A DNA stretch of 64,000 bases, taken from contig JANXYK010000031.1 of the NCBI GenBank assembly GCA_025350055.1, positions 1-64,000 on the forward strand. Reading direction: 5' to 3'. Positions 1,968 through 61,207 of the stretch are shown in pieces. A program made the position numbers and the translations under genes. The notes below the pieces were generated by a model. That model had not been told where the DNA came from, did no database searches, and was given only the letters and a program-made list of their open reading frames with translations. The first letter of the stretch is position 1. Each line of letters opens with the position of its first letter. The stretch is from Gammaproteobacteria bacterium. GTDB lineage: Bacteria; Pseudomonadota; Gammaproteobacteria; Steroidobacterales; Steroidobacteraceae.

Positions 1968-2360
1968 ATGAAGATAATCAGGCTTGCGGCCGCGGGCAGC
2001 GTGCTGCTGTTGGCGACCGGCGTTACTCAGGCTGCGGTAAGTTCGGCCAACAATCCGGCGATGCTGGATCTGGCCAGGCAGAGCGGGTGCCTGACCTGCC
2101 ATGCGATCGAGGCGGTCGTCGCAAGGGATGGCGTTGCGAAGCCGATCGGCCCGGCCTGGCAGGATGTCGCAAAGAAATATCGTGGACAATCTGACGCCGC
2201 GAAGAAGTTGACTGCAACCGTCATGCGGGGTTCGAATCCGTACGCCAGCCACTGAAAGGGCAAAGTCACAGGCTTGGCGATGCCCCCCAACGCCGTGGCG
2301 ATTACACGAGCACAGGCACACGAGCTGGTGAACTGGATTCTGTCTTTGCCGCCAAAATAA
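1968..2360 (+). pseudogene. Class I c-type cytochrome with an in-frame TGA
   Basis: Encodes a small periplasmic monohaem cytochrome of the c551/c5 type: signal peptide (residues 1-23), haem site CLTCH (41-45), then helices up to RGSNPYASH. Codon 96 (2253-2255) is TGA. Past it the same frame continues KGKVTGLAMPPNAVAI and ends QAHELVNWILSLPPK at the TAA 2358-2360, which is the canonical C-terminus with the Met haem ligand (codon 105). Relatives usually have Trp at about codon 96, so the simplest change is TGG to TGA. The truncated 95-aa product lacks the axial Met. Start chosen for the GGGAGG RBS at 1956-1962. Readthrough cannot be excluded. Confidence 0.8.
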
Positions 2361-2368
2361 TTGGCGGC
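2348..2368 (+). terminator. Hairpin at the end of the cytochrome gene
   Basis: GCCGCCAA-AATAA-TTGGCGGC: perfect 8-bp stem overlapping the natural TAA of the cytochrome frame. There is no downstream T-run, so it may be a weak or Rho-assisted terminator or an mRNA-stabilising hairpin. Confidence 0.4.
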
Positions 2369-2492
2369 GCCGATTGCCCGCGGCGCGGGCGCTCAACCGG
2401 CGGCGCGGCTGGCACCCACTCGACGACACGACGGGCGTTGTACAGGTTACGCATCATGCGCGGGTCTTCGCCCGCCAGATCCTTGAGCGTCA

Positions 2493-2922
2493 TTGACAAG
2501 GGCGATTCCGGGAGCCGAGGCACCGACACGATGGTCCGCGAGGGTCCTGAACGGGCCGCGGCGGGCGGCGCTTGTGGTAGGCGACACGCTCTATATACTC
2601 GCGGGTCGCGATGCGGCGCGCGCGAACAGTGGCGACTTCAAAATGCGCACGTGGCAGATCTTCACCACGCAAGACCCTGCAAGCCATGCGTGGCAACTCT
2701 ATCCCAATGTAATCAAACCCCACGAAGTGTTCGCCTGGGCCGCCGACAGCGCAGCTTATGCCGGACAGATCGTTCAAGGCCCCGACCGCCGCTTCTACTT
2801 TTACGCGCCGGTGCTGGAGCGCGATTGCCACGCGCGCGACTGCTTCGCCATTGGCGTAGCCGCTGCGGACTCACCGCTCGGGCCCTGGCACGACGTTCAT
2901 CCGCAGGGTCCGATCCTCTCGC
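2493..2922 (+). pseudogene. GH43-family glycosidase remnant (arabinosidase/xylosidase type)
   Basis: The readable peptide contains AALVVGDTLYILAGRD, KMRTWQIFTTQD, FAWAADSAAYAGQIV, RFYFYAPV and AIGVAAADSPLGPW, which match successive blades of the GH43 five-bladed propeller. The N-terminus is cut just before the blade that normally carries the catalytic Asp (ADPAALV); here the text is RRAALV. The 3' part stops at GPILSQ near 2922, where sequence of a convergent gene begins. Only about a third of a GH43 enzyme is left, so it is a dead fragment. It indicates a former arabinan/arabinoxylan locus. Confidence 0.75.
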
Positions 2923-3951
2923 AGCAGGTACCACGTAGCCAGGGATGGCCACAGCCACCGGCCGTGCCTGCGCGGCGAGCGTAGTCTCAATTGCGCGGAT
3001 CGACGGCGCAGTCAGCAGGCGCACACCAAACGTGCGCGTGGCGCCAGCTGCGATCACTTCACTGCTGGATGCGTTCCATTCAGCGCCGGCAACGCCGCGC
3101 CATTCGCTCTCCAAATAACCCAGGCTACGCACTGTCCAGTCGTAGAAGCCCTCGGAAGTCTGGCTGCGTTCGCCGCCGTCGCGGAAGGCGGCAATAGGTG
3201 CTTCCTGCGTCGTGGGCAATGGCACACAGGCCTCGAGTGGCGTGTGCGTTTCCGGCAGCACCAGCAGCGCCGGGCCGCTCCCGTTCAATCGCGTGACCTG
3301 CACGTAGCCGGCATCGAGCGCGATCGACGGATCGGCGAAGCTCGCCTGCGCGTGGGCGCTGGCGAGGCTACGACCGGTCAGCAAGTTGTCGAACACCATC
3401 GGCATGCCGATGGCCCCAAGCTCGATCGGCGCATCGCCTGCATTGCGGATCTTGAAGCGCAGCACCGGCGCATCGCCCTCGGCGCTCCAGTGCCGTTCCA
3501 CCTGCAGCGCGCAGGCTGCGCCCAGTGCCGCAGATATATCGGCGGCCGCAACCTCACCGGCAGCGACGGCCAGCGGCTTCACCGCTCCCTGTGGAATCGA
3601 GGTCGAGCAGTCGACCCATGCGCCGGCCGTGGCGCGAATGGCGCGCACCCGCAGATGCAGATCGCCCACGTGGTTGTAGCCGGTCCCCGATCGCTTCGGC
3701 TCGAGCGCCGCCGGAGTGAAGCTGAAGTCGGGCTGGTCGGCCGGCGAGAGGCGTACGAGGGTTTGAGTATCGGCGCGCAACTGCACGCGCAAGGAACCGA
3801 CGCTATGACGCAAGAGAGACGCTGCCAGTTTGCCGCGCGTGTTTGTATTGCCTGCCGGAACCGCTGTTGCGCACAGCGCAGGTCCGAGTGCTGCGATGAG
3901 CAGCGCCGCAACGATCGCTTTGTTTGCCTTGATAGCGGGATCAGGAAGCAT
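2923..3951 (-). pseudogene. DUF5695-type protein, 3'-truncated
   Basis: About 343 codons of a secreted DUF5695 protein (a family of large six-hairpin-glycosidase-like proteins found in polysaccharide loci): signal peptide at residues 1-27, then beta-sandwich sequence ending TFGVRLLTAPSIRAIE and AIPGYVV. Full-length relatives are much longer and continue after this IPGYV motif; here the frame runs on for about 70 codons through antisense GH43 sequence to a chance stop at 2713. The gene is divergent from the GntR regulator. Identification of the family is from memory of motif pattern; truncation is clear. Confidence 0.65.
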
Positions 3952-6006: not shown

Positions 6007-6074
6007 GAAGTCAAAGCGCGCCCAGAAGCGCGGGCTTTTGCGCGCATATCTATATGAATAGCGAAGGGAATGAC

Positions 6075-7409
6075 ATGCCTAGTGTTCCAGGCGGCGCCGC
6101 AGGTTCGACAAGCGGCGCGGGCGTCACAAATGGCGCGAACGGCCAAAGCTACGCCCCGGCATTGCGGCTGCTGGCCAGCCTGTTCTTCATCTGGGGTTTC
6201 ATCACAGTCATCAACAACACGCTGCTGCCGCACCTGCGCAGTGTGTTCACGCTCGACTACACGCGCACCACGCTGATCGAGTCGGTGTGGTTCATCGCCT
6301 ACTTCGTCGCCTCAATTCCTTCGGCGAAGCTGATCGAGCGCATCGGCTATCAGCGCTCCATGGTGATCGGCCTGGAAGTGATGGCTGTTGGCGCGCTGTG
6401 CATGATTCCGGCCGCGCGTATTCCGTCCTACGAGATCACGCTGGCAGCGCTGTTCGTGATCGCGAGCGGCATCACGCTGCTGCAGGTTGCCGCGAATCCC
6501 TACGTGGCCGTGGTCGGCCCGCCAGAGACCGCGCCCGCGCGCTTGAACCTGGTGCAGGCCTTCAATTCGCTCGGCACCACGATGGCGCCGTTGTTCGGCG
6601 GCTATCTGATCCTGGGTCGCTCGACCTCGGGCACCGCGGCGGCCGGCACCGTGCTCACCGAGGCTGAGCGCCTGGCCGATGCGCGCGCCGTGCAGTTGCC
6701 CTATCTGATCGTCGCGGCGGTCTTGATCGTGCTGGCAGTGCTGATCGCGCGCTTCGATCTGCCAGACATGGGCGCCGAGACGCGGCGCGCGTCGGCGCAG
6801 GAGCGCCGCGGCCATTCGCTCTGGCGCCACCGCAACCTGGTCTGGGGCGTGCCGGCCATCTTCATCTACCTGATCGCCGAGATCGGTGTCGCGAATCTCT
6901 TCATCAACTTTGTCTCGCAGCCCGACGTCGCCAACCTCACGCACGAGCGCGCCTCGGACTACCTGTTCCTGCTGTGGGGCGGCATGATGGTCGGGCGCTT
7001 CGGCGGCAGCTTCCTGATGCGTAGGATTCCCGGTGAGCGCGTGCTCGCGTTCTTTGCAGTTGGCGCTTTTGTGACCATGCTGGTGACGACCATGGTTTCT
7101 GGCCCCTTGGCCATGTGGTCACTGATCCTCGTCGGGTTGTTTCACTCGATCATGTTCCCTACCATCTTCACGCTCGGCATCCGCGGACTGGGGCCGCTCA
7201 CCGAGGAGGGCGCGGGCCTGCTGATCATGGCGATTGCAGGCGGCGCACTGGTGATCGTGCAGGGCTGGCTCGCAGACCACTTCGGCCTGCAGCGCTCCTT
7301 CCTGCTGACGGCGGCTTGCGAGTTGTATGTGTTGTTCTACGCCTTGTGGGGCGCGACGCCTGTGGTGAGCGGCGGTGAACCGCCCGCGGCCGAGCGGCGC
7401 GTTTCGTGA
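6075..7409 (+). CDS. Sugar MFS transporter, FucP family
   Basis: 444 aa with 12 predicted membrane segments. The first reads [20 protein letters not shown], the FucP-family signature for proton symport of L-fucose, galactose, glucose or arabinose; [39 protein letters not shown] is the other diagnostic region. The start at 6075 is preferred because AAGGGA lies 5 nt before it; an in-frame ATG at 6054 has no such site. The stop overlaps the next gene by GTGA. Imports the monosaccharide set free by the glycosidases of this island. Confidence 0.92.
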
Positions 7410-8992
7410 GCGAGCACATCAACGGTGCGGTGTTGGTGGGTGCGCAGGAGTGTCGTCCGTCCGGCAGTTTTCACGCGATCGAAGCGGTGAGTGGGCAGGT
7501 GATGCAGCCCGCCTTTTGCGAGGCTGGCGCGAGCGAAGTGGATGCAGCCTGCGCGCTGGCCGCTGCGGCCTATCCGGTATTCAGCGAGCTTGCGCCCGAA
7601 GCGCGTGCCAAGTTTCTTGAGACAGCAGCGACTGCTGTCGAGAGTCTGGGCGACACACTCATCGTTCGCGCCATGGCCGAGAGCGGCTTGCCGCGCGCGC
7701 GGCTCGAAGGCGAGCTGGTGCGCACGGTGCGCCAGCTGCAGCTGTTTGCGCAGGTGGTGCGCACCGGCGAATGGATCGATGCGACCATTGACACGGCGCA
7801 ACCGCAGCGCACGCCATTGCCGCGCCCCGACCTGCGGCGACGCAATGTCGCGCTCGGCCCGGTGGTCGTGTTCGGTGCTTCCAATTTTCCGCTGGCATTC
7901 TCGGTCGCAGGTGGCGATACCGCCTCGGCGCTCGCGGCGGGTTGCCCTGTGGTGGTCAAGGGTCACCGTGCGCATCCGGGTACCGGTGAACTCGTCGCGC
8001 GTGCATTGCGCCGTGCGGTGGAATCCTGTGGTCTGCCACCGGGCGTGTTCTCCTATCTGCCCGGCACTACGCACGCGCTCGGTTCGGCGTTGGTCGCCGA
8101 TCCGCGCATCCACGCGGCTGGGTTCACGGGCTCGCGCGGCGGTGGCAAGGCGCTGATGGACGTTGCCGCGGCGCGGCCTGAGCCGATTCCCGTATACGCG
8201 GAGATGTCGGCGATCAATCCCGTGATCCTGTTGCCTGCGGCTGCGCGCGCGCGTGGCGCCGAGCTCGCGCGCGCCTATGCTGCTTCCCTTTCAATGGGGG
8301 CGGGGCAGTTCTGCACTAATCCTGGTTTGCTGATCGCGATCGATGGCCCGGATCTCGAGAACTTTCTCGGCGCGGCGGGTGCGGCCGTGCAGGCCATCGC
8401 ACCACAACCCATGTTGACCGATGGCATCCTGAAGTCCTATCGAAGCGGCGTGGCGGCGCTCGCGGCCAATCCCGCGGTCACGCGCGTGGGCCAGGGGCAA
8501 GGCGCGACGGAAGGGCGCCTCGCCAGTGCCGCGCTGTTTGCAACCCAGGCAGCCGCGTTCAAATCCGATCCGGCGCTCAGTGCCGAAGTGTTCGGCGCCA
8601 GCTCACTGGTGGTGCGTGCCCGCGATGACGCTGAACTCGAGCAGCTCATCAGCGGGCTAGAAGGTCAGCTCACCGCGACACTGTTGTTTGATGCCAAAGA
8701 TGAGCCCCTTGTCGCGCGCTTGCTACCGCTGCTCCAGCGCCGCGTCGGGCGTGTGCTCGCCAACGGCTGGCCGACTGGTGTCGAGGTCTGCCATGCGATG
8801 GTGCACGGTGGTCCGTTTCCGGCGACCAGCGATACGCGCACCACGTCGGTCGGCACGCTCGCGATCCAGCGCTTTTTGCGGCCAGTGTGTTACCAGAGCC
8901 TGCCGGACAGCCTGCTGCCGCCCGCGCTGCGCGCGGCGAATCCGTGGAAGCTGCCGCGGCGTGTGGATGGCGTACGGCAGAGTGCGCCCTGA
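7406..8992 (+). CDS. 2,5-dioxovalerate (alpha-ketoglutarate semialdehyde) dehydrogenase
   Basis: 528 aa ALDH-superfamily enzyme of the NADP+ KGSADH type, EC 1.2.1.26. It oxidises 2-oxoglutarate semialdehyde to 2-oxoglutarate, the last step of non-phosphorylative pentose and sugar-acid pathways. Visible: [24 protein letters not shown] (cofactor site), the general base Glu in [10 protein letters not shown], and the catalytic Cys in [13 protein letters not shown] start overlaps the transporter stop by 4 bp, so it is translationally coupled. Followed 33 bp later by AraD1. Intact. Confidence 0.9.
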
Positions 8993-9025
8993 GCAGCGAT
9001 GCGCGCGTAGAGCCGCAGCGCAAGC

Positions 9026-10003
9026 ATGAGTTTGTCACTACTGCAGTACTCTGACGCCGCCGGCCAGCGGGGCGTGGCGGCGCTGCGCGACGATGGCGTT
9101 GCGCGTGCAGTTCCCGGTGCGCGTAGCGTACTGGCGCTGGCACAGCGGGCACTGCGCGAAGGCTGCACGCTGGCGCAGCTTGCGAGCGATGCGCACACGC
9201 CCGTCGATCTGACGCGCGTCAGCGTGCTGGCACCCATCGATCATCCCGATCCTGCGCACCTGCTGCTGACCGGTACAGGACTCACTCACCTGGGTTCCGC
9301 CGCAGGGCGCGACAAGATGCATCGTGCCGAGGCCGCAGGTGAACAACTCACCGACTCGATGAAAATGTTCCTCATGGGCGTCAAGGAGGGCAAACCCGCC
9401 GTGCCCGGCAAGGGTGTGCAGCCGGAGTGGTTCTACAAGGGCGATGGGTCCTGTCTGGTCGCGCCCGGTGCCGAGCTGCCGTCTCCCGATTTCGCGCTGG
9501 ATGCCGGCGAAGAGCCGGAAATCGCTGGTATCTACCTGATCGCTGACGACGGCCAGCCGGTGCGCCTGGGCTACGCACTCGCCAACGAATTCTCGGACCA
9601 CGTGACCGAGCGTCACAACTACCTGTGGCTCGCGCACTCCAAGCTCCGGCCCGCGGCGCTCGGCCCGGAACTGCTGCTCGGCGAACTGACCGCGAAGGTG
9701 GAAGGCATGAGTCGCATGCTGCGCGACGGCCAGGTGATCTGGGAAAAGCCCTTCCACACAGGCGAGGGCAACATGTCGCACAGCCTGGCCAACCTCGAGC
9801 ACCACCACTTCAAGTACGCGCTGTTCCGCAGGCCCGGCGACCTGCATGTGCACTTCTTCGGCACGGCGACGCTGTCGTTCGTCGATGAAGTGCGTACCCG
9901 CGAGGGCGACGAGTTCGAGATCAGTGCCAAGCCTTTTCACCTGCCGTTGCGCAATCGCATCGGGCGCCGCACGAATACGGTGCCCGTTGTGCGTGCGCTC
10001 TGA
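9026..10003 (+). CDS. AraD1-family (FAH superfamily) 2-keto-3-deoxy sugar-acid enzyme
   Basis: 325 aa. The fumarylacetoacetate-hydrolase-like fold is seen from LLLTGTGLTHLGSAAGRDKM to the metal-binding region EEPEIAGIYLIADDGQPVRLGYALANEFSDH. Members of the AraD1 group act on 2-keto-3-deoxy-L-arabonate (dehydratase or related step) and are found next to KGSADH, as here. Together the two convert the deoxy-keto acid to 2-oxoglutarate. The exact reaction is inferred from neighbours. The pathway's first two enzymes (sugar dehydrogenase, aldonate dehydratase) are not in this island. Confidence 0.8.
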   Translation: MSLSLLQYSDAAGQRGVAALRDDGVARAVPGARSVLALAQRALREGCTLAQLASDAHTPVDLTRVSVLAPIDHPDPAHLLLTGTGLTHLGSAAGRDKMHRAEAAGEQLTDSMKMFLMGVKEGKPAVPGKGVQPEWFYKGDGSCLVAPGAELPSPDFALDAGEEPEIAGIYLIADDGQPVRLGYALANEFSDHVTERHNYLWLAHSKLRPAALGPELLLGELTAKVEGMSRMLRDGQVIWEKPFHTGEGNMSHSLANLEHHHFKYALFRRPGDLHVHFFGTATLSFVDEVRTREGDEFEISAKPFHLPLRNRIGRRTNTVPVVRAL

Positions 10004-10036
10004 GCCCGGTACCCATCGCTTGGTCGGAACATCATC

Positions 10037-12418
10037 ATGACCACACTGACCCCCGATCGCCGTCAGCTGCTGCTCGGTGGTATGGCGCTGGCCGCGGCCG
10101 GCAGCGCGACGCCGCTGTGCGCGTCGATTGCCCTGCGCAGTCCGGCCGTGGCGAGGCCGCTGCCGCTCACCGCCGTGCGCTTGCGCGCTTCCGACTATGC
10201 AAACGCGGTCGAAGTAAACCGCATGACCTTGCACCGGCTCGATCCCGATCGCCTGCTGCACACCTTTCGTGTCTACGCTGGTCTCGCGCCCAAGGCGCCT
10301 GCGTACGGTGGCTGGGAAGGCGACACGATCGCCGGGCACACGCTCGGCCACTACCTAACGGCTCTGGCGCTGTGCTTTCAGCAGACGGGCGATGAGGAAC
10401 TGCGCCGGCGCGCCGACTACATCGTCGGTGAGCTGGCGCTCATGCAGAAGCATCGCGGCACGGGCTATGTCGGTGCGCTCGGTCGCAAACGCGCCGATGG
10501 TACCGTGGTCGATGGCGAGGAGATCTTCGGCGAGATCGCGCGTGGCAAGATCCGCTCGGGTGGCTTCGACCTCAACGGCTCGTGGTCGCCGCTGTACACC
10601 GTGCACAAGCTGTTCGCGGGTCTGCTCGATGCGCACGCGATCTTCAATGACCGGCGCGCGCTGACTATCGCGGTGGGTCTCGCCGGCTATTTCGAGCGCG
10701 TGTTCGCACCGCTCACTCCGGCCCAGGTGCAGCAAGTGCTGGCCTGCGAGTACGGGGGACTCAACGAGAGCTACGCCGAGCTGTATGCGCGCACGGGCGA
10801 GCGGCGCTGGCTGCGCATAGCCGAGCTGCTGCACGACGAGCGCGTGCTCGGGCCGCTCGAGCGGCATGAAGACAAGCTGGCGGATATCCACGCCAATACC
10901 CAGGTGCCCAAGCTCATCGGGCTCGCGCGGTTGCACGAGTTGACCGGCAATGAAGCGGCGGGCACCGCCGCGCGCTTCTTCTGGCAGACCGTTACCACGC
11001 ACCACAGCTATGTGATCGGCGGCAATTCAGATCGCGAGTATTTCACCGAGACCGACACGCTCGCCACCCACATCACCGAGCAGACCTGCGAGCACTGCAA
11101 CACCTACAACATGCTCAAGCTTACGCGCCAGCTGTGGTCCTGGGCTCCGGATGGTGCGCTGTTCGACTACTACGAGCGCGCGCACCTGAATCACGTGATG
11201 GCGGCGCTCGATCCGCAGACTGGCGGCTACACCTACATGACGCCGTTGATGAGCGGCGCGGCGCGCGAGTTTTCGAGTGCGGACGACAACGAATTCTGGT
11301 GCTGCGTGGGCACGGGCATGGAGAGTCATGCGAAGCATGGCGATTCCATCTACTGGGAATGCGATGACGGCACGCTATACGTCAATCTGTACATCGCCTC
11401 CGAGGCGCGCTGGGTGGCGCGCGGCGTCCGCCTGGAGCTCGACACGCGTTATCCCTTCGGATCGGATATTCATCTCTCGTTGCCGGCAGTGCGCGACGGA
11501 CATTTCGCGTTGGCACTGCGCATTCCCGCCTGGGCTGGTGGCGCGGCTACAGTGAGCGTGAACGGCGCATCGTTCTCGCCGCGCATGCAGCGTGGCTACG
11601 CGATCCTGGAACGCAGCTGGAGCACAGGTGATACCGTGGTGCTGTCCTTGCCGCTGGCGCTGCGCACCGAGGCGACACCGGGCGATGCGCGCACCGTGGC
11701 AGTATTGCAGGGGCCCATGGTGCTGGCGGCCGACCTCGGTGGTCGCGAAGGGACCTGGGAGGGCGCCGATCCGGCCCTGGTGGGTGCATCGCTACTGGCA
11801 GGATTTTCGCCCACCGACGCCGCGCAAGCGCGCTATGCGGCGCGCGGTGTGGCACGGCCGGGCGACCTCGTGTTCGCGCCTTTCTACCGCCAGTACCAGC
11901 GGCGCAGTGCCGTCTATTTCCGCAGCTTCAGCGATGCCGCATGGACGCTCGAGGCCGCCGCGTGGCAGGCTCAACAGGCTCAGGAGCGCGACATTGCCGC
12001 GCGCGCCGTAGACACGATGCACCTGGGCGAGATGCAGCCGGAGCGCGATCACCAGTTGACGAGTGAACTGTCGTATCCCGTGGTCTATCGCGGCCGCCAC
12101 GGCCGTGACGCGCGTTCAGGCGGTTACATCGAGTTCACGCTGCGCAGCCGACCTGGCCCGCTCGTGTTGCAGGCCACTTACTGGGGCAGTGAACGGGCCC
12201 GCGACTTTGATCTGCTGATCGATGGCCAGCGCGTAGCCACGCAGCACCTCGACAACGACCGGCCCGGGCAGTTCTTTGCGGTGGACTATCCGCTCGATGC
12301 GGCGCTCACGACCGGCAAGGACAAGCTGCGTGTGCGGGTGGTAGCGCACGATCGCAGTACGGCGGGACCGGTCTTCGGCATGCGGGTCTATGCGGCCCGC
12401 GCGGATGCACAGCAATAG
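10037..12418 (+). CDS. GH127 beta-L-arabinofuranosidase, Tat-exported
   Basis: 793 aa. The N-terminus DRRQLLLGGMALAAAG is a twin-arginine signal peptide. The (alpha/alpha)6 barrel contains the zinc/catalytic residues of GH127: Glu352 and Cys354 in CEHCNTYN and the vicinal Cys422-Cys423 in FWCCVGTGMESHAKHG; in the family the first Cys of this pair is the nucleophile. A C-terminal beta domain follows (GRHGRDARSGGYIEF). Releases L-arabinose from beta-L-arabinofuranosides, which fits the downstream AraD1/KGSADH route. Tat export fits a protein that folds around its metal before export. Confidence 0.9.
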   Translation: MTTLTPDRRQLLLGGMALAAAGSATPLCASIALRSPAVARPLPLTAVRLRASDYANAVEVNRMTLHRLDPDRLLHTFRVYAGLAPKAPAYGGWEGDTIAGHTLGHYLTALALCFQQTGDEELRRRADYIVGELALMQKHRGTGYVGALGRKRADGTVVDGEEIFGEIARGKIRSGGFDLNGSWSPLYTVHKLFAGLLDAHAIFNDRRALTIAVGLAGYFERVFAPLTPAQVQQVLACEYGGLNESYAELYARTGERRWLRIAELLHDERVLGPLERHEDKLADIHANTQVPKLIGLARLHELTGNEAAGTAARFFWQTVTTHHSYVIGGNSDREYFTETDTLATHITEQTCEHCNTYNMLKLTRQLWSWAPDGALFDYYERAHLNHVMAALDPQTGGYTYMTPLMSGAAREFSSADDNEFWCCVGTGMESHAKHGDSIYWECDDGTLYVNLYIASEARWVARGVRLELDTRYPFGSDIHLSLPAVRDGHFALALRIPAWAGGAATVSVNGASFSPRMQRGYAILERSWSTGDTVVLSLPLALRTEATPGDARTVAVLQGPMVLAADLGGREGTWEGADPALVGASLLAGFSPTDAAQARYAARGVARPGDLVFAPFYRQYQRRSAVYFRSFSDAAWTLEAAAWQAQQAQERDIAARAVDTMHLGEMQPERDHQLTSELSYPVVYRGRHGRDARSGGYIEFTLRSRPGPLVLQATYWGSERARDFDLLIDGQRVATQHLDNDRPGQFFAVDYPLDAALTTGKDKLRVRVVAHDRSTAGPVFGMRVYAARADAQQ

Positions 12419-12439
12419 TGTGCGCATGAGGGGTCTGGC

Positions 12440-13090
12440 ATGAGCATCGTGATACGCACGCTCTCCGAGCGCGTCTTCGAGGTGCTGCGCGAGCGCATCG
12501 TCACTGGGAGCATCCAGGGCGAGCAGGCGATCCGCCAGGATGCGCTCGCGGCCGAACTCGGTGTCAGCAAGATTCCGCTGCGCGAGGCGCTTGCCCGGCT
12601 CGAACAGGACGGACTGCTCACCAGCCACGCCAACCGAGGCTATTTTGTGCAACCGATGTCGGCCAGCCAGGCGGACGAGATCTACGAGTTGCGGCTGCGC
12701 ATCGAACCGCGAGCCGCCGCGCAGGCCTGCGAGCGCGCCAGCGAGTCGGAGCAGGCCACGGCACGCAAGGCCTTCGAGCGGCTCGATGCGATTGCGGATG
12801 CCAACCTGGCTGAGTCGGCCCTGGGCAACCGTGTGTACCACGCTTCGCTGGTGCGCCCGTGCGGGCGTCTGCTCACCACCCAGCTCGTCGAGCGCCTGCT
12901 GATATTGTCCGAGCGCTACGTGATTGCGCACCTGCAGCCCGCGGGCCGAGGCTCACGAGCGCACAAGGAGCATCTGGAAATGCTCGAGGCCTGGCTCGCG
13001 CGCGATGCCAAGGCCGTGGAGCGCATGGTCGAGACGCACACGCGTGCCACGCACGATGATCTCATGCAGCAGCTGGACGGAGCGCAGTGA
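12440..13090 (+). CDS. FadR-subfamily GntR regulator
   Basis: 216 aa. Winged helix at residues about 8-72 (RTLSERVFEVLRERIVTGSIQ, LGVSKIPLREALARLEQDGLL), then an FCD domain (ELRLRIEPRAAAQAC, RPCGRLLTTQLVERL, HKEHLEMLEAWLARD with ligand-binding His residues). It is the second regulator of the sugar island and sits in the operon, so feedback control is likely. Its stop overlaps the GH27 start by GTGA. Confidence 0.88.
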   Translation: MSIVIRTLSERVFEVLRERIVTGSIQGEQAIRQDALAAELGVSKIPLREALARLEQDGLLTSHANRGYFVQPMSASQADEIYELRLRIEPRAAAQACERASESEQATARKAFERLDAIADANLAESALGNRVYHASLVRPCGRLLTTQLVERLLILSERYVIAHLQPAGRGSRAHKEHLEMLEAWLARDAKAVERMVETHTRATHDDLMQQLDGAQ

Positions 13091-14627
13091 GACTGCGTGT
13101 TGGCACGTTCGCGGTTGTACGGGCTGCGCGGATTGTGCCAGTGGTGCAGATTGTGTCGGTGGTGCTGATCATGCTGGTGATGCTGGCCGCTGCGCCGGCA
13201 GCGTGGGCGGCTTCGGCTGCGCCTGAAGCGCCTCGCGGCGCCTGGCTATTCGACGGCGGACCGGATTTCCCGGGCATCACGCTGATGACGCTGCGCGGCG
13301 CACGCGGTTCGCTCAACGGTGAGCTGACCAGCCACTGGTACGGCACGATGCCAATGTTCTCACCCCCCCCCATGGAGGGCGATGTGCTGGTGTTCGACCA
13401 GCGCAACCTCAATGACCGTGAGCATGCCGTGCGCCGCTGGACCGCGCATTTCAAGGGCCGCGCGGTGAGTCTCGCGGGCGATTTCTGGTATGCCCATGTG
13501 GAGCAGCAGGGCAGGCGCGCCCGCAGCGCCGAGGCGCGTGCGCGCGCGTTTCACCCGGGGCCACCGCTGCCTCCCGCTGGCAGCGTGCCGGCCGACGGGC
13601 CCGCGGCGACACCGCCGATGGGCTGGTCGAGCTGGAATGCCTTCGCGGAAAAGATCGACGATGCCACCGTGCGCGCCATCGCCGATGCGATGGTGAGTAC
13701 GGGCCTGCGCGATGCCGGCTACGTGTATGTGAACATTGACGACGGCTGGCAGGGCACGCGCGACGCGCAAGGCGAGCTGCGCTCCAACGCGAAGTTTCCG
13801 GACATGAAAGCGCTGGCGGACTATGTGCACGCGCGTGGCCTCAAACTGGGCCTGTACACCTCGCCCGGACCGCGCTCCTGCGCTGGCTACGAAGGCACTT
13901 ACGGGCATGTGCGCCAGGACGCGCAGCGCTTCGCGGACTGGGGCGTGGACTATCTCAAGTACGATCTGTGCTCGGGCGAGTGGTTCTACGCCGATGCCGA
14001 TACAGTGCAGCGCACCTATCTCGAGATGGGCGCAGCCCTGCGAGTGACGGGCCGGCCGATCGTGTACTCGCTGTGTGAATACGGCCGTTTCGATGTGGCC
14101 AGCTGGGGCCGCACGGTAGGTGGCCATCTGTGGCGCACCACCGGCGACATCAAGGATGAGTATGCGAGCATGGCGTCGATCGGCTTCGAGCGCCATCCGA
14201 AGTTCAAGCCGGGTGGGCCAGGCGGCTGGAATGATCCCGACATGCTCGAGATCGGCAACGGCGGCATGAGCGATGACGAGTACCGCACGCACATGAGCCT
14301 GTGGGTGCTGCAGTCCGCGCCGCTGATCATGAGTCACTATGTGCGCACGACCACGCCCTCTGCCGCGCAACTGCTGCTCAACCGCGAAGTGCTCGCCATC
14401 GACCAGGATGCGCGCGGCGCGCAGGGCAGGGCCGTGCGCGTCGAGGGCGGGCTGGAGGTCTGGCGCAAGCTGCTGCCATTGAGCTGCGGCCAGCCGATGC
14501 CGGCTTCGAATCGATTGCTCAATTGCGCGACCTGTGGCGTCAGGCGAGCGTGCCTGCCGATACCCGGTCCGTGGACGTGCCAGCGCACGGAGTCATACTG
14601 TTGCGCGTCAGCGCTATCGCTCAGTAG
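13087..14627 (+). pseudogene. GH27 alpha-galactosidase / beta-L-arabinopyranosidase with C-terminal frameshift
   Basis: Signal peptide to about residue 43, an extra N-terminal beta-rich domain (about 45-165), then the GH27 TIM barrel starting TPPMGWSSWNAF. The nucleophile Asp is in YLKYDLCSG, the acid/base Asp in WRTTGDIKDEY, and GGWNDPDMLEIGNGG is intact. After LEVWRK (14461) the frame is lost: the proper C-terminus (AQLRDLWRQASVPAD to ILLRVSAIAQ, stop at 14627) lies in the -1 frame from about 14502. The unshifted frame runs to 14682 with a nonsense Cys/Pro-rich tail. The catalytic barrel is complete, so partial activity is possible; only the C-terminal beta domain is spoiled. GTG start coupled to the GntR gene. 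Confidence 0.8.
13363..13371 (+). repeat. C9 homopolymer inside GH27
   Basis: Nine cytosines encode PPP in the N-terminal domain and are in frame here. Such a tract is prone to slippage in replication and in sequencing. Confidence 0.6.
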
Positions 14628-22735: not shown

Positions 22736-24021
22736 ATGCCTGCAAATAGCCTGCAAACGCGAGCGGTGACCCATCGCGTGTTATTGGCCAGCCTCGTAGG
22801 CAGCGCCATCGAATGGTTCGATTTTTTCCTGTACGGCACCGCTACGGGAATCATCTTCAACAAGCTGCATTTCCCGGCCGCCGATCCATTGGTATCGCTG
22901 TTGCTCGCCTACGCCTCGTTTGCGTTGCCGTTCCTCATCCGGCCCATCGGTGGCCTGGTGTTCGCCCACATTGGCGATCGCATCGGGCGCAAGAAAACGC
23001 TGATCGTGACACTGCTCTTGATGGGTGCTGGTACCACGCTGATCGGCTTGCTGCCGGGCTATGACAGCATCGGCATTGCGGCTCCCATATTGCTGGTTAC
23101 GTTGCGCCTGGTGCAGGGCATCGGCCTCGGTGGCGAGTGGGGTGGGGCAGTGTTGCTGGCCTTCGAATTTGCCCCAGCCCATCGCAAGGGCTTCTTTGGC
23201 AGCATTCCCCTGGCGGGAGTGCCCTTCGGCATGCTGCTGTCGGCGCTGTGCCTGGGCGCAGCTTCGCTGCTGCCAGAATCCGCGTTCATGCAGTGGGGCT
23301 GGCGGATACCGTTCATTGCCAGCGCTGTGCTGGTGGCGGTGGGGCTGTGGATCAGGAACGGCATAGACGAGACCCCGGAATTCGAGGCGACCAGAATGTC
23401 GGGCAACTGGTCCGTTGTCCGGCGCTGGAGCTGCTTAGGCGATCCTGGAGCAAAGTCCTGATGGCCATTCTGTTGAAGTTTGGCGAGACAGCTTCGTTCT
23501 ACACGTTCGCGGTTTTACTGGTCAGCTATGCAACCGCGCAGCTGGGATACAGCCGAACCCTGACTCTTGCGGCCGTCGCCGCGGGCGCCGGTGCGGCGAC
23601 AGCGGTGATTCCAATCTGCGGCGCGCTCGCCGATCGCTATGGTCGACGCACGCTGTTCCTGGTGGGCTCGTTGGGCATGGTGCTGTTCGCGGCCACCGTC
23701 ATTGCAATAGGTATAGTCTGGCCGCCAATCACCGCAACGCTGAGTTCGCTGTTGGCTGATGCCTTTCCAGCTGCCTTGCGCTACACGGGCATCACCTTTG
23801 GCTACCAGATCGGCGCCGCGCTGGTGGGCGGCACGGCGCCCCTGATTGCCACCCTGTTGATATCAGCCAACCATGGCCGCTGGCATTGGGTTGCGGCCTA
23901 CGTGGCCTTGCTATCAGCCACCTCGATTGCTGCGTTGTGTGCATTTCGTCCGGCAGGTGCCGGTAGCGGTGCCGGGCAACAGCAAGCGCCACGGTTTCAC
24001 CCGATCAAAGGACATTCCTGA
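22736..24021 (+). pseudogene. MFS transporter (metabolite:H+ symporter, ProP/ShiA type), frameshifted
   Basis: The first half (to FEATRM near 23395) is typical: SLVGSAIEWFDFFLYGTAT, FLIRPIGGLVFAHIGDRIGRKKTL, RLVQGIGLGGEWGGAVLLAFE. The second half continues in another frame from about 23420 (SWSKVLMAILLKFGETASFY) to FRPAGAG and the stop at 24021. A second lesion is likely: FLVGSLGMVLFAAT joins directly to VIAIGIVWPPITATL, so about 20 residues of a helix seen in relatives seem to be missing. Two separate defects make function unlikely. The stop is joined TGATG to the methyltransferase start. Confidence 0.78.
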
Positions 24022-26128: not shown

Positions 26129-26340
26129 GCCCGCAGTGTCATGCGTGAGGCGGCGCTGCAATCCTGGAAGAGGTGGTGATCGATGAACTGAATCACTCGG
26201 ATCGGTTGGATCGTTTCGCCGCTGGTCGTCAATGCCTACTGCTTCGCGGCCGCGACACCCCAGGACGCGGGCTATGCGGCTTACGTTCCAGCTCTACGAA
26301 GGCCGGATCAAGGCTCTGAGCAAGGACTACGCCGCTGCAA

Positions 26341-26609
26341 CTGAAGCCCCACCACATCACTGGACAGGTCAGGGATCTGGCACGTGCCATCCATTGGTAC
26401 GAGAGCATCCTGGGATTCACTTTGGTCGAGTGCGGCACTCGGGGCGGAGACGCCATGAGTTACGCCGAAATGCCGATCTCGCCTACCACGAGGTCATGGA
26501 GCGCGTTGGCAAACCATTCCTCTACCCGGGGCAACCCTCTCAGTCGGCGACTGGTTTGTTGGTTACCGACAGCGAAGGCAACGAGATCGAGATCCTCGGT
26601 GTAAAGTAG
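26341..26609 (+). pseudogene. VOC-superfamily (glyoxalase-like) protein, frameshifted
   Basis: Frame 1 (from 26341) reads LKPHHITGQVRDLARAIHWYESILGFTLVECG, the first beta-alpha-beta module of a VOC protein; from about 26495 another frame reads VGKPFLYPGQPSQSATGLLVTDSEGNEIEILGVK, its last module with the metal-binding Glu. No single frame covers both, and no convincing start was found. A remnant about 90 codons long. Confidence 0.7.
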
Positions 26610-36795: not shown

Positions 36796-36823
36796 CAGCC
36801 TGGAGCAGCCGCGCGTCAGGCTG
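36796..36823. terminator. Hairpin between convergent cytochrome and GH1 genes
   Basis: CAGCCTG (36796-36802) and CAGGCTG (36817-36823) form a 7-bp stem with a 14-nt loop in the gap between two convergent genes. It could serve both directions; no T-run on either side. Confidence 0.3.
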
Positions 36824-38166: not shown

Positions 38167-38170
38167 ACTG

Positions 38171-38207
38171 TGTCCCATAAGGACAGTAAAAGTGTCCTGA
38201 CGGGACA
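38171..38207. promoter_or_regulatory. Paired TetR operator: two TGTCC-N5-GGACA palindromes
   Basis: TGTCC-CATAA-GGACA at 38171-38185 and TGTCC-TGACG-GGACA at 38193-38207: two perfect inverted repeats with centres 22 bp apart, on the same face of the helix. They lie 5-41 bp upstream of the GH1 start and within the divergent region to the TetR gene, so the TetR protein most likely binds here and represses both. Confidence 0.7.
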
Positions 38208-42744: not shown

Positions 42745-44349
42745 TCAGGCTTCCAGCCCTTGCTTGGCCAGGTACTCGTCGTAGCTGCCGCGGAAATCGC
42801 TGAACTGGCCGTCGGGAAGCAGCTCGATCACGCGGTTGGCGAGACTGCCCACGAATTCACGATCGTGTGACACGAAGATCAGCGTGCCCGGATATTTCTC
42901 CAGCGCGATCTGCAGCGACTCGATGGTTTCCATGTCCATGTGGTTGGTGGGCTCGTCCATGATCATCACATTGGGCTTGGTGAGGATCAGCTTGCCGTAG
43001 ATCATGCGGCCCTTCTCGCCGCCGGAGAGCACGGTCACGGGCTTCTTCACTTCATCGCCCGAGAACAGCAGGCGGCCGAGTGTGCTGCGCACCAGTTGGT
43101 CGTCATCGGCCTTGCCGGTCCAGTTCGACATCCAGCTGAACAGATCGATGCGCTCGGCGAATTCGGCCTGCGGATCCTGAGGCATGTAGCCGGGCTGTGC
43201 GTTTTCCACCCAGGCGATGCGGCCCTGCGTGGGGTGCAGTTCGCCTGCCAGGCAGCGCATCAAGGTGGTCTTGCCGATGCCGTTAGGGCCGATGATGGCC
43301 ACGCGCTGTTCGGCTTCGATGGTGAAGCTGAGCTTCGAGAACACATCGGCATCCGCGCCCGGATAGCGAAATGCGAGATTCTCCACGGTCACGGCCGAGC
43401 GGTGCAGCTTGCTGCGCTGTTCGAAGCGGATGTACGGATTCTGTCGTGAGGAAGGGCGCACCTCCTCGATCTTGATCTTCTCGAGCTGGCGCTTGCGCGA
43501 GGTCGCCTGGCGCGCCTTGGAGGCGTTGGCGGAGAAGCGCCGCACGAACTCCTGCAGGTCGGAGATCTTGTCCTTGGCCTTGGCATTGGCCGCTTCGACC
43601 CGCGCGCGCGCCTGCACCGAGGCCAGCATGAAATCGTCGTAGTTGCCCGGATAGACTCTGAGCTGCTGAAAATCCAGATCGGCGATGTGCGTGCACACCT
43701 GGTTCAGGAAATGGCGATCGTGGCTGATGATCACCATGGTCGCATCGTAGTTGTTCAGGATGCGTTCGAGCCAGCCGATCGAGTGGATGTCGAGGTTGTT
43801 GGTGGGCTCGTCGAGCAGCAGCACATCGGGAGTAGAAAACAGCGCCTGCGCTAGCAGCACGCGCAGCTTCAGGCCGGGCGGCACTTCGCGCATCGGTCCG
43901 TCGTGCTGCGCGGCCTCGATGCCTGCATCCAGCAGGATGCTGGCGGCACGCGCCTCGGCGGTGTAGCCGCCGTACTCGGCGTACTTGCCCTCGAGCTCGG
44001 CCGCCTTCATGTAGTCAGTGTCACTGGCTTCCGCGTCGGCGTAGATCTGATCGCGCTGCTGCAGCGCCTGCCACATCTCGCGATGGCCCTGCATCACCAC
44101 ATCGAGCACGCGCTGGTCTTCATAGGCAAACTGGTTCTGGTTCAACTTGCCAAGCCGCAGGCCCGGCTGCAAAACGACTTCTCCGGCGCTAGGCTCGAGC
44201 TCGCCGCCCAGGATCTTCATCAACGTGGATTTGCCGCAGCCATTGGCGCCGATCAGGCCGTAGCGGTTGCCATCGGCGAACTTGACCGTGACATTTTCGA
44301 ACAGCGGCTTGGCGTCGAATTGAATGGTGAGATTGACAGTCGAAAGCAT
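42745..44349 (-). CDS. ybiT: ABC-F family ATPase YbiT
   Basis: 534 aa, the length of E. coli YbiT. Two ABC domains: Walker [10 protein letters not shown] and GPNGIGKTT, signatures [15 protein letters not shown] and LSGGEKGRM, Walker [14 protein letters not shown] and [13 protein letters not shown]. The linker contains [26 protein letters not shown], typical of YbiT. ABC-F proteins bind the ribosomal E site and modulate translation. Start at 44349 matches the family ([11 protein letters not shown]). A conserved core gene with no lesion. Confidence 0.95.
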
Positions 44350-44515
44350 GGGCGTCCGGGCATTGGCTCCCGAACACGGGAACACGAGCATTGGTGATGA
44401 AGCGTTTGGCCGCGGCGGCAGGCTCTGCGCCGCTGGCAATCGCCTAGTATGCGCGAGTTTCGGCCGCCGGGTAACCCCGCTGCCCTCGCAGGCCTGTTTT
44501 GAGCGGGAAAACAGC

Positions 44516-50884: not shown

Positions 50885-51631
50885 TCAGCGCCAGCCCGCA
50901 TCGATCCAGTATTCATGCCCCGTGCAGCAGCGGCCGTCGTCCGAGGCCAGGAACAGCACCAGCGCGGCCACGTGTTCGGGCTCAAGCCGCACCTTCAGGC
51001 ATTGCTGCGCAACGATTTCCGCTTCGCCCTCGGGCGTGTACCACTGTTGCTGGCGCGGCGTGCGCACATTTCCCGGCACCACGCAGGTGACGCGGATGCC
51101 GTCCGGGCCCAGCTCGCGGGCCAGCGCGCGCGTCATGCCTTCGATGCCGGCTTTGGCGGTTTCGTAGAGCACCAGGTTCGTGAGTCCGAGGTGCCAGGAA
51201 ATCGAGCCCAGGTTGATGATGGCGCCGCCGCCGCGCTCGCGCATGCCCGGCGTCACGGCCTGGGCGCAGAACAGCAGGTGCCGCAGGTTCAGCGCCATGC
51301 GCCCGTCCCAGTACTCGGGTGTAATGGCTGCCAGCGTGTGCCGGTCGTCGCTGGCGGCATTGTTCACCAGTACATCGACTGCGCCGATTCACGCCAGCGT
51401 GCCTTTGACCGCAGCAAGATCCGCCAGGTCGCACTCATGGAATACCGGCGCCACGGCGGCCTCGGCGAGCGCGGTGACCAGTGCGCGCGAGGGGGCGACC
51501 GCGACATCGATGAACTGCACCGCGGCACCCTGGGTCGCAAAAGCCCTAACGATACCGGCGCCTATGCCAGAGCCACCGCCGGTGACGATGACACGTTTGC
51601 CTTTGAGACTGGAGTAAACCGTTGTAGTCAT
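50885..51631 (-). pseudogene. Short-chain dehydrogenase/reductase with in-frame TGA
   Basis: 248 codons of a classical SDR: cofactor motif IVTGGGSGIGAG (about 16-27), VDVLVNNAAS (NNAG-type motif), catalytic Ser in INLGSISWH and Tyr-x3-Lys in LYETAKAG, and the family C-terminus TGHEYWIDAGWR. Codon 81 (51389-51391) is TGA between VKGTLA and IGAVDVLVNN, in perfect frame; the lost residue is most simply Gly or Arg. The last gene of the catabolic operon. Re-initiation at GTG 51367 would lack the cofactor domain. Confidence 0.85.
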
Positions 51632-51652: not shown

Positions 51653-52812
51653 TCAGAGCAATCCGCGTGCAGCCAGATTCTGCATCAGGGCACCGACACC
51701 GAACTGCCATGGCGGCGCGGCATCGCAATGCGCGACCAGATTTTCCAGCGTGCCGAGGCGCGGCGTGCTCACGCGCACGCGATCGCCGACATGGTGAGTG
51801 AAGCCCTGGCCCGCAGCATCGCGACCTTTCACGGGCGCGAACATGGTGCCGAGGAACAGCGCGAAGCCGTCGGGATATTGGTGATGCGCGCTGCGCGTCT
51901 GGCGTGCCAGCTCGAGCGGATGGCGGCTGATCAGCTGCATCGAACTCGTGCCCTACAGGCTGAAGCCGTCGCTGCCCGTGACTTCCAGCCGGATCTCGGC
52001 GCCGCAGACATCATCGATGCCGAAGTGATCGTCGAACAGGCGGATGAACGGCCCGAGCGCGCAGGAGGCGTTGCTGTCCTTGGCCTTGCCGAGCAGCAGT
52101 GCCGAGCGGCCTTCGAAATCGCGCAGATTGACATCATTGCCGAGCGTAGCACCGCGCGCATTGCCGGCCGCATCGCAGACCAGCACGATCTCTGGCTCCG
52201 GATTGTTCCACTGGCTGTCGGCGCGCACGCCCACGTGTTCGCCCCAGCCGACCGCGGCGAGGATCGGCGCCTTGGTGAACACTTCGGCATCGGGACCGAT
52301 CGCCACCTCAAGGTATTGCGACCACAGTCCTTCGGCGATCAGCGCCTGCTTGAGTCTTGCGGCAGCCTCAGAACCAGGCTGCGCACTGCGCAGGTCGGTG
52401 CCGATGCGAGTGGAAAGCTTGCCGCGAATCAGCTGTGCCTGGCTCAGGTCGCCGTGCGCACGCTCCTCGATCACGCGCTCGAGCGTGGAAGCCGCGAAGG
52501 TTACCCCCGCCGCCTTGATACATTGCAGATCGAGTGGTGCCAGCAGTTTTGCAGCCGTGCCGCGCTGCGCTGACATCCATACCGCCTGCAATGCAAAAGA
52601 TTCCAGTGCGCCCCCCCCGCAGCGCCAGCGGGAATGCGCAGGTTGTCGCGATGGCGTTCGAGCAGCTGGGAGGTGGTGGGTGCGATGCGGGAGAGATCTT
52701 CGAGCTTGCCATTGCGGACCAGCACTGGCATAGGGCCCTGGCCCAGATCCATACGACCGAGCAGTAACGCGCGCTGCCAATCCTCGGCCAACCACGGCTG
52801 AATGCCGGTCAC
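51653..52812 (-). pseudogene. FAH-family hydrolase (GguC-like), one in-frame TAG and one frameshift
   Basis: GTG start overlaps the permease stop. N-terminus TGIQPWLAEDWQRALLLGRMD to NLRIPAGAAGG; after a G8 run on the coding strand (52611-52618) the frame is lost and resumes as ALESFALQAVWMSAQRG. Nine (or six) Gs restore it. The body (PEPEIVLVCDAAGNARG, FEGRSALLLGKAKDSNAS with the metal-site Glu and Asp) is intact to GSDGFSL; then TAG (51953-51955), then GTSSMQLISRHPLELARQT in frame to the natural end AARGLL. Relatives have an acidic residue at the stop, so GAG to TAG is likely. Two lesions. Confidence 0.85.
52611..52618 (-). repeat. G8 homopolymer at the frameshift of the FAH gene
   Basis: Eight Gs on the coding strand, within GCTGC-G8-CGC. 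The downstream frame needs nine or six. A typical slippage site, either biological (phase variation) or technical. Confidence 0.6.
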
Positions 52813-57116: not shown

Positions 57117-57118
57117 GT

Positions 57119-58453: not shown

Positions 58454-58521
58454 GGCAATTCCAATGATTGCATACGGCGTCGTGTATTGCGAAACGGCAG
58501 CGATGCCTCTAGGCTCATTTG

Positions 58522-58743
58522 ATGAAAGCATTGCTCGCCGCGACGCTGTTGCAGGTGGAATCCAACTTGCTGTATTCGGCCCGCTATACCTACACGAGCC
58601 TGGAGTTTCCCGGGCTCACTGAAGCTGTGGAGGATTCAGACTGGCCGTTGCCAACCGACCAGGCGCAACGCCTGGAAGCGGCATTACAGAAAAACACGCA
58701 GTGGTTGCGTAGTGCGCTGACTGACTGGCGGGGCAGGACTTGA
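58522..58743 (+). CDS. Small protein coupled to the DMGDH-like gene
   Basis: 73 aa, ATG at 58522 (TTG at 58519 possible). Sequence features: an amphipathic start ([20 protein letters not shown]), an acidic middle ([14 protein letters not shown]) and a helical end ([20 protein letters not shown]). No family recognised. Its TGA overlaps the TTG start of the following enzyme (TTGA), so it is translationally coupled to it and may be an assembly factor or small subunit. It faces the aminotransferase operon, sharing a 68-bp promoter region. Confidence 0.6.
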
Positions 58744-61207
58744 CCCGTATTGCCTTACCCTCCCAGGCCCGCGTGGTGGTCGTCGGTGGCGGCGTGATCG
58801 GTACTTCGGTGGCCTATCACCTGGGCTTGCTGGGCTGGCAGGACATCGTGCTGCTCGAGCGCGACCGGCTCACCTCCGGCACGCCGCCGGCCTGATGGTC
58901 ACTTACGGCTCGACCTCCGAGACCTCGACCGAGATCCGTAAATACACACGCGATCTTTACCAGCGGCTCGAGGCGGAGACCGGGCAGGCCACGGGCTTTG
59001 CGCCCATCGGCTTCATCGAAGTGGCTGACGACCAGGACCGACTCGAGGAGTTTCGCCGCGTGGCGGCCTTCAATCGCTACTGCGGCGTGGACGTGCAGGA
59101 ACTCTCGGCAAGCGAAGTGGCCAAGCTGTTCCCGCTGGCGCGCGTCGATGACATCCAGGCCGGCTTCTACGTGGCGAGCGATGGTCGCGTGAATCCCGTG
59201 GACGTCACGATGGCGCTGGCCAAGGGTGCGCGCAAGCGCGGCGTGAAGGTCTTTGAAGGTGTCGCCGCACTCGGCGTGATGAAAGACCGTCAGCGCGTTA
59301 CTGGCGTGCGCACCAGTCACGGTGACATCCAATGCGACTACGTCGTGAACTGCGCCGGCATGTGGGCGCGGCAGTTCGGCGCGCTCGCCGGTGTGAATGT
59401 GCCGAACCAGGCCGCCGAGCACTACTACCTGATCACCGAGCCCATCAAGGATCTGCCGCCGAACATGCCGGTGCTCGAAGATCCTTCGGCCTACGGCTAT
59501 TACCGCGAAGAGGGCGGCGGTCTCATGGTCGGCCTGTTCGAACCGGTGTGCGCGCCCTGGAAGATCGAGGGCATACCGGAAGATGCATCGTTCACCGAGC
59601 TGGCGCCCGACTGGGAGCGCATGACGCCCTTTCTCGAGCGCGCCATGTCGCGCGTGCCGATCACCAGCGAAGTGGGCATCCGCAAGTTCTTCTGCGGGCC
59701 GGAGAGTTTCACGCCCGACCTGCGGCCCATCATTGGCGAGGCACCGGAGCTGCGCAACTACTTCGTGGCCGCAGGACTCAATTCGGTCGGCATCCTGACA
59801 GGCGGTGGCCTGGGTCGCGTGATGGCGCAGTGGATCACTACCGGCACGCCCGATGTGGATGTCACGGGCTTCAATATCGATCGTCTGCATCTTTACCAGG
59901 CGAACCCCGAGTACCGACGCAGGCGCACGGTCGAGGCGCTGGGCATGGTTTACAAATGCCACTACCCGACCATGGCGATGCAGACCGCGCGCGATGCGCG
60001 CCGCTCGCCTTTTCACGAGCGGCTCGCGGCCGCAGGTGCGCATTTCATGGAGGTGAGCGGTTGGGAAAGTCCGCAGTGGTACGGGGAGCCGGGCAGCAAG
60101 CCCGATCCCGGTCCGCTCTCCTGGGGGCGTCAGCAATGGTTTCCCCGCTGGCAGGCCGAGCATCGCGCCGCGCGTGAAGGCGTGATCGCGATGGATATGT
60201 CCTTCATGGGCAAATTCCTGGTACAGGGACGCGATGCGGCGCGCTGCCTCAACCGGATTTCTGCCAACGACGTGGCGGGCCCGGTGGGCACCATTGTCTA
60301 TACGCAGTGGTTGAATGAGCTCGGCAAACTGGAAGCCGATCTCACCGTGACGAGGCTCGGCGAGGAGCAGTTCCTGGTGGTGGTCACCGATACGATGGTG
60401 CGCCATGCCGAGACCTGGATGAAGCGTCACATTCCGGATGACGCGCACGCCTTCGTCACCGAGGTCACGGGCGCTTACGGACAGCTCAATGTGCAGGGAC
60501 CGCGCTCGCGCGAGTTGCTGCAGCAGGTGACCAGTGCCGACCTGTCCGATGCCGCCTGGCCTTTCCGCGCCGTGCGCGAGATCGACATCGGCTTTGCGCG
60601 CGCGCTGTGCGTGCGAATCACTTACGTCGGCGAGCTGGGCTACGAGCTGTATGTGCCTGCCGAGCAGGCCACGCATGTTTACGATCGCATCATCGAGGCC
60701 GGAGGTCCGCTGGGTCTCAGGCACGCGGTCCTCAAGGCGCTGGGGAGCCTGCGCATGGAAAAGGCCTATCGCGACTACGGTCACGATATCGACAACACCG
60801 ACGATCCCTATGAGACGGGGCTTGGCTTCGCCATCGACCTGAACAAGCCTGAGGGATTCATCGGCAAGGAAGCCTTGTTGGCCCGCAAGGCACAGGGTCC
60901 ATTGCAACGGCGACTGGTACAGGTGCTGGTGAAAGATGCCGGGCCGCTGATGTTCCACGCCGAGATCGTGCGACGCGATGGCATGCCGGTAGGCTATGTG
61001 CGCGCCGCCTCGTACGGGCACACGCTGGGCGGAGCAGTGGGGCTGGCGATGATCGAACCGAAGCTGCCGGCGGGGTCGAAGCAGCCTGTCGATGCTGCGT
61101 GGCTGGCCGAGGGCCGTTGGGAAGTCGAGATCGCGGGGAAGTGCTATCCCGCCGTGGTTTCGCTGAAGCCGATGTACGATTCGGCCAACGCGCGCATCAA
61201 GGCGTAG
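58740..61207 (+). pseudogene. Dimethylglycine/sarcosine-dehydrogenase-like FAD + GcvT enzyme, 5' frameshift
   Basis: TTG start. FAD motif [21 protein letters not shown], then TSGTPPA and TGA. In the +1-shifted frame from AAGLMVTYG (58889-58915) the rest is intact: DAO domain (EDPSAYGYYREEGGGLMVG), central FAO-type domain, and C-terminal GcvT folate domain (HTLGGAVGLAMIEPKLPAGS) to 61207, about 820 codons. Relatives read TSGTTWHAAG; a 10-bp loss between two GGCACG repeats (one left, 58878-58883) explains the shift and deletes the Trp-His where FAD is covalently bound in DMGDH. Converts N-methylated glycines, one-carbon units going to folate. Confidence 0.85.

Follow-up and report, generated by a model that had tools for sequence, protein, structure and literature searches.

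Pseudogenes account for at least 1 to 5% of the gene-like sequences of bacteria, according to the excerpted sections of one report (PMC522871). In those sections, and in a second report (PMC2916853), ordinary bacterial pseudogenes are young genes with few lesions each, and the families named as prone to decay include short-chain dehydrogenases/reductases (SDR) and sugar transporters of the major facilitator superfamily (MFS) (PMC522871). Here, we analyzed a 64-kb stretch (the window, bases 1-64000 of the 130,447-base contig C69) of a soil gammaproteobacterial genome. Twelve of its 55 genes were broken and a 13th, coding for a TonB-dependent receptor, was apparently truncated at its 5' end, that is, 24% of the genes in one stretch as against the ordinary level of at least 1 to 5% (PMC522871, excerpts). 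The lesions were of the same types as in ordinary pseudogenes, and both decay-prone families were hit. Sodalis and other host-associated bacteria at an early stage of genome reduction, as far as the excerpts of PMC7067036 describe them, resemble the window in having single-lesion genes amid intact surroundings. Unlike there, the control stretches that we sampled in the same genome had a coding density of ~0.90-0.93 and few accepted lesions, and no host was indicated (none was looked for). Our reading, to which we give a probability of about 0.8, is that of gene decay, recent and still under way, with its focus in one accessory catabolic region. This is ordinary biology at a high local density and no new mechanism is needed.

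The genome (G000) is a 3.29-Mb metagenome bin of 76 contigs, with an estimated completeness of 96.3% and contamination of 0.1%. Hereafter, other G numbers designate genomes compared, L numbers sampled stretches, and C numbers contigs. The 55 genes were delimited by hand, omitting a few small open reading frames near the window start. Translation in all frames, together with searches and alignments, yielded five nonsense sites (TGA 2253, TAA 31477, TAG 35632, TGA 51389, and TAG 51953) and seven frame lesions (at ~14472, ~23395, two within 26.3-26.5 kb, ~38050, between ~52540 and ~52620, and at 58884). A preliminary description of the sequence had announced about a dozen disabled catabolic genes, with in-frame stops at these five sites and frame lesions at ~14470-14500, ~23395-23420, ~38040-38100, and 58884. 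All of these were recovered, and the overall claim stood with the following corrections. Near 2922, where a deletion junction had been proposed, two truncated genes, GH43 and DUF5695, lie head to head on opposite strands. The frame lesion placed at ~26460-26495 is present, but was resolved by eye into two frameshifts in a glyoxalase gene. The frameshift assigned to 52611 does lie in the FAH-type gene, but alignment only brackets its position. The genes had been said to carry single lesions, which is right for most of them but not for the FAH-type gene (two by alignment) or the glyoxalase gene (two by eye). Finally, a sixth stop, TGA 30482, was discarded as a gene-breaking lesion: it lies upstream of any recognisable protein, no coding signal was found in 30482-30640, and the TonB receptor, which has no in-frame signal peptide, is probably truncated at its 5' end. 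Coordinates are collected in Table 1.

Table 1. Broken, truncated, and contrasting intact genes of the window
Feature	Coordinates	Strand	State	Basis
Cytochrome c-551/552-like	1968..2362	+	In-frame TGA at 2253	Frame resumes past stop; structure match
GH43 fragment	2574..2985	+	3' part absent at junction near 2922	PF04616 match
DUF5695 gene	2931..3951	-	C-terminal part absent at junction near 2922	PF18951 match
Arabinose-type cluster: GluP-type MFS, aldehyde dehydrogenase, AraD1, GH127, GntR	6054..13090	+	Intact	Profile matches
GH27-type alpha-galactosidase	13087..14621	+	Frame-shifting deletion of ~52 bases at ~14472	Melibiase_2 and Melibiase_C in two frames
MHS-type MFS transporter	22736..24021	+	Frameshift at ~23395	TIGR00883, profile matches, alignment
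Glyoxalase/VOC-like	26232..26609	+	Two frameshifts (by eye), 26.3-26.5 kb	PF00903 in middle frame only
TonB-dependent receptor	28400..30481	-	Probably 5'-truncated; no in-frame signal peptide	Translation, coding-signal model
Intradiol dioxygenase with cadherin-like domain	31216..32259	-	TAA at 31477	PF12733 and PF00775
FAD-linked oxidase	34822..36390	+	Nonsense TAG at 35632	PF01565 before stop, PF02913 after
GH1 beta-glucosidase	36816..38190	-	Frameshift at ~38050, separating the signal sequence from the catalytic domain	TIGR03356, translation, alignment
YbiT-type ABC-F ATPase (contrast)	42745..44439	-	Intact	NF011646
D-xylose 1-dehydrogenase-like (XylB-type) SDR	50888..51631	-	TGA at 51389	Both pieces match SDR families
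FAH-type dehydratase	51653..52812	-	TAG at 51953 and frameshift at ~52540 to ~52620	Alignments with relatives
Dimethylglycine/sarcosine-dehydrogenase-like (DMGDH-like)	58719..61207	+	10-base deletion at ~58884	DAO in two frames

A gene was taken as a pseudogene if its family resumed past a stop or a frameshift. This was observed for 10 of the 13 genes (partly by eye for the glyoxalase), the remaining three (GH43, DUF5695, and the TonB receptor) being truncations. One family, or two domains of one enzyme, matched on both sides of the break in the FAD-linked oxidase, the XylB-type SDR, the alpha-galactosidase, the MFS transporter, and the DMGDH-like gene. The breaks in the cytochrome c, FAH-type, and GH1 genes are based on alignments with solved structures or relatives; for the cytochrome, a match to a cytochrome c-552 of solved structure (E 6e-12) covers TGA 2253. 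At the junction, the GH43 fragment covers positions 26-111 of the 288 of PF04616, at 30 bits, below the curated cut-off of 32.2, and the DUF5695 gene covers positions 1-246 of the 857 of PF18951 (E 4e-72).

Broken and intact genes are interleaved in the window. The preliminary description had contrasted the catabolic genes with intact core genes. The genes named are intact indeed, but their sparing is not significant: the nine core or regulatory genes represent 12.6% of the coding length, and the probability that 13 random strikes leave all nine untouched is ~0.12. Intact core genes hence prove little, and there are also many catabolic genes among those that are intact in the window. Neither Rfam (at gathering level) nor tRNA scans gave any match in the window.

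We next compare the window with the rest of the genome, an unusual density of lesions having been claimed. A codon-pair model was trained on G000 and applied to the window and to 60 further stretches, two all-N stretches being dropped; the controls amounted to 979 kb, ~30% of the genome. Since the strict gene-structure model read most in-frame stops as two adjacent genes, candidates were judged by eye. A looser penalty gained true window sites along with many ordinary gene borders, and was excluded from the counts. The strict scan missed 6 of the 14 listed window sites and thus undercounts, presumably in the controls too. Four of the six in-frame-stop candidates of the window were judged real, as compared with five, in two genes (L123 and L210), of the 48 (23 + 25) in the controls. 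All four strict frame-switch calls of the window were accepted, among them one in the junction region (3012) and one at the 5' end of the TonB receptor gene. Out of 23 control calls (15, plus 8 with a retrained model), 10 were accepted: L016:773, L026:10644, L116:8050, L196:11222, and six in L117, one of which (L117:16455) was called by the retrained model only at the looser setting. Two control calls of the missing-gene-end type (L015 and L117) were omitted from the counts.

Altogether, 8 accepted lesions in 64 kb stood against 15 in 979 kb, an ~8-fold higher density (binomial P 4e-5), which supports the claim. When the calls at the junction and at the TonB 5' end were set aside, the difference was ~6-fold (6 vs 15, P 0.001; 6 vs 20, P 0.004). 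The test is post hoc and unblinded, the lesions being the reason why the window was picked. Over the remaining 66 kb of contig C69, two stop candidates and one switch were called and none was accepted. Before judging, the window had ~16 calls per 100 kb, as compared with 4.5 for the remainder of the contig, 6 for other G000 stretches, 6 for G001, and 2 for G016. Within the controls, we noticed a second cluster, the six switches accepted by eye in L117 (C13, 80-100 kb), which affect amidohydrolase-, AraC-, thiamine-diphosphate-decarboxylase-, and quinone-oxidoreductase-like genes; in one case there is an apparent MFS gene fusion (names assigned by eye).

For eight of the broken genes, relatives were searched in 120 genomes of the family at set E-value limits. 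Uninterrupted ones were found for the FAD-linked oxidase, DMGDH-like, alpha-galactosidase, FAH-type, MFS, GH1, and SDR genes, but none for the dioxygenase at its limit. The alignments recommended in the preliminary description confirmed the lesions for several genes. The FAD-linked oxidase aligned with two stop-free relatives (G134, 83%; G050, 69%), and three among the other matches listed carry one in-frame TGA. We take this enzyme to be vanillyl-alcohol-oxidase/p-cresol-methylhydroxylase-like. Ten bases of the DMGDH-like gene are absent as compared with four relatives, and relatives at 70-80% occur in several other genera with no stops listed (80% in four genomes of three genera); G000 also holds an intact paralogue at 48%. 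In the alpha-galactosidase gene, ~52 bases are absent relative to one relative (G128, 63%, open frame 511). The GH1 gene had one relative in the family, at 44%. For the FAH-type gene, the alignment with the same-genus genome G001 continues through TAG 51953, and 17 matches in other genomes have open frames of at least 380 residues; neither side of the TAG gave a Pfam match, and no NCBIfam model matched its piece. The downstream piece of the SDR matched NF053674 (D-xylose 1-dehydrogenase) with 324.6 bits, below the whole-protein cut-off of 400. At these limits, no second copy of the FAD-linked oxidase or FAH-type gene was found in G000. Two alignments showed additional gaps, of ~13-17 residues downstream of the MFS frameshift and of 4 residues at the SDR stop (against G071). 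As the identities are only 32% and 61%, respectively, both gaps may reflect family variation; otherwise, the former may be a second lesion and the latter part of the lesion at the stop. In the dioxygenase, the PF00775 match ends at TAA 31477, on the upstream side only, and one distant match (27%, L089) spans the stop.

Counts of synonymous and nonsynonymous changes, also recommended beforehand, were made with three taxa. On the branch of the window, the FAH-type gene had 20 amino-acid changes vs 9, for 18 vs 15 synonymous changes. The DMGDH-like gene had 59-72 vs 39-53 amino-acid changes, an excess seen in all 12 overlapping comparisons, with mixed synonymous counts. In contrast, the FAD-linked oxidase showed no such excess. 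Two genes thus hint at relaxed selection and one does not, which would fit losses of different, mostly recent age.

Decay and assembly error had both been put forward as explanations. We favor decay because the lesions cluster, deletions of 10 and ~52 bases are among them, some genes carry two lesions, and homopolymers are few: a run of at least five was found in one of the seven frame-lesion intervals (C8 at 52611-52618, in the FAH-type gene), several break points being inexact. The patchy presence of the FAD-linked oxidase and GH1 genes, with no same-genus match among the 120 genomes at the limits set, also speaks for it. Decay is better supported, which does not decide between the two. The competing view, that sequencing or assembly errors, such as low local coverage or a mixed-strain consensus, produced most of the lesions, would suit a metagenome bin in 76 contigs and the C8 run. 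Spurious stops and frameshifts are known to result from low coverage (PMC11017572, excerpts), and the spurious pseudogenes described there resemble ours in being frame breaks within conserved genes of a draft assembly. They differ from the present lesions, which are local, include larger deletions, and lie, in six of seven cases, in frame-lesion intervals with no homopolymer of five or more. Errors would also be expected to raise lesions throughout the assembly, whereas the controls of the same genome had about one-eighth of the accepted density, with 6 of the 15 lesions in a single 20-kb stretch, and the other half of the contig had no accepted lesion. The excess of amino-acid change in two of the three testable broken genes is likewise not expected from errors. 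We consider this explanation, the main rival of decay, unlikely.

Some observations do weigh against decay. One frameshift interval holds a homopolymer, and spurious pseudogenes do arise from low coverage (PMC11017572, excerpts). Lesions were judged by eye and unblinded. The dioxygenase had no relative meeting the limit in the 120 family genomes. The FAD-linked oxidase had 24 vs 25 amino-acid changes (54 vs 41 synonymous), the alpha-galactosidase had no outgroup for such counts, and three broken genes were tested in all. Besides, the broken genes still look well conserved.

A possibility was that a foreign catabolic island had arrived by horizontal transfer, failed, and is now decaying, which is compatible with decay as one route to it. 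According to the excerpts of PMC522871, bacterial pseudogenes commonly originate from failed transfer. At the limits set, no same-genus genome matched the FAD-linked oxidase, the GH1 gene, or the DMGDH-like gene at 70-80%, their relatives being in other genera. Yet, the same-genus G001 has a match to the FAH-type gene at 74%, broken and intact genes are intermixed, and no transposase or integrase was matched among the 60 pieces scanned with Pfam. The atypical composition expected of a transferred island was not seen either: the tetranucleotide composition of six 10-kb window blocks was ordinary, 18 to 81 of 90 control blocks being further from the genome mean. We regard such an origin as rather doubtful. 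The GC content of the window is ordinary for the genome, and a plasmid search with window 20000-24000 gave no match.

Another way to explain in-frame stops without decay is that the genes remain intact in effect, through stop readthrough or frame recoding. In-frame stops under purifying selection have been reported in bacteria (PMC7918605), 8 of the 11 in-frame stops collected in the genome are TAG (the 11 comprise the five of the window, four from L210, and one each from L123 and a TonB plug search), and a glycogen-phosphorylase-like gene in L210 (C23) has four in-frame TAG with no other lesion seen. However, all three stop codons and several frame lesions are involved in the window, as the preliminary description had argued, and further evidence strengthened this argument. 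TAG terminates 132 of 507 long open reading frames. The anticodons of the 42 Rfam-matched tRNAs include none that reads a stop, and further tRNAs found by ARAGORN in the sampled stretches all had sense anticodons, bearing in mind that the bin is only 96% complete and may miss a tRNA. Codon usage by itself would turn 57-62% of one-step nonsense changes into TAG, and 8 in 11 is in line with that (P 0.22-0.34). TAG being a common terminator with no stop-reading tRNA among those found, recoding was dropped as highly improbable. The four TAG of the glycogen-phosphorylase-like gene (L210, 15174-17711, minus strand) lie at 15483, 16185, 16473, and 16851; four out of four would occur by chance with a probability of ~0.10-0.14. 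Among the matches listed in other genomes, that of G015 carries a TGA and the rest no stop.

The genome-wide plug search itself returned 33 matches. Of the five with open frames of at most 395 residues, one has a TAG and one sits at the end of a contig, which may point to decay of receptor genes outside the window as well. Two matches, with frames of 316 and 560 residues, share the same coordinates on two contigs (C50:3398-3730 and C56:3398-3730) and possibly reflect a duplicated or split contig. At the window start, a Fic/DOC-family gene (822-1438, minus strand) has a small upstream partner, the two being perhaps a toxin-antitoxin pair (pairing by eye).

XylB and XylX belong to Weimberg-type oxidation of D-xylose, and AraD1 to oxidation of L-arabinose. 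In the window, the XylB-type dehydrogenase gene is adjacent to the FAH-type dehydratase gene, which we read as XylX-like, and the two are neighbors in G071 as well. Here, unlike in the described pathway, both are broken, whereas the arabinose-type cluster is intact. From this we infer that D-xylose oxidation may be in the course of being lost while arabinose use is kept. We also noticed that the CehA/McbA-type hydrolase gene (40105-42699) and the aminotransferase/aldehyde dehydrogenase genes (52809-58531), which are close neighbors in G016 and G001, are separated by ~11 kb here, the xylose pair lying between them.

If decay is indeed at work, genes for hemicellulose sugars (GH43, GH27, GH1, D-xylose dehydrogenase, and the XylX-like dehydratase), for aromatic compounds (the FAD-linked oxidase and the intradiol dioxygenase), and for methylated amines would have stopped paying their way. 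Each would then have received a first disabling strike, by a nonsense substitution or a small deletion, and some a second, deletion not yet having been reached. The lesions, their clustering, the unbroken relatives of several genes, and the lack of a suppressor among the tRNAs found are observed, whereas the loss of selection, the order of events, and the support that raw reads would give to the lesions are our inference.

Our searches found no paper joining "pseudogene" and "Steroidobacteraceae", and we claim no wider absence from the literature. Were the lesions not real, the window would be a locally poor assembly, unfit for gene-presence calls. If they are real, gene-presence calls in this bin overstate xylose, beta-glucoside, and aromatic metabolism. 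We tentatively raise the possibility, itself less probable than not, that a free-living soil lineage sheds its catabolic modules region by region, the window and C13:80-100 kb being two such clusters in an otherwise tightly coding genome, and that the order of loss, xylose before arabinose, may be readable from genes with one or two lesions. Real lesions would show cleanly how pathway loss begins in a probably free-living bacterium.

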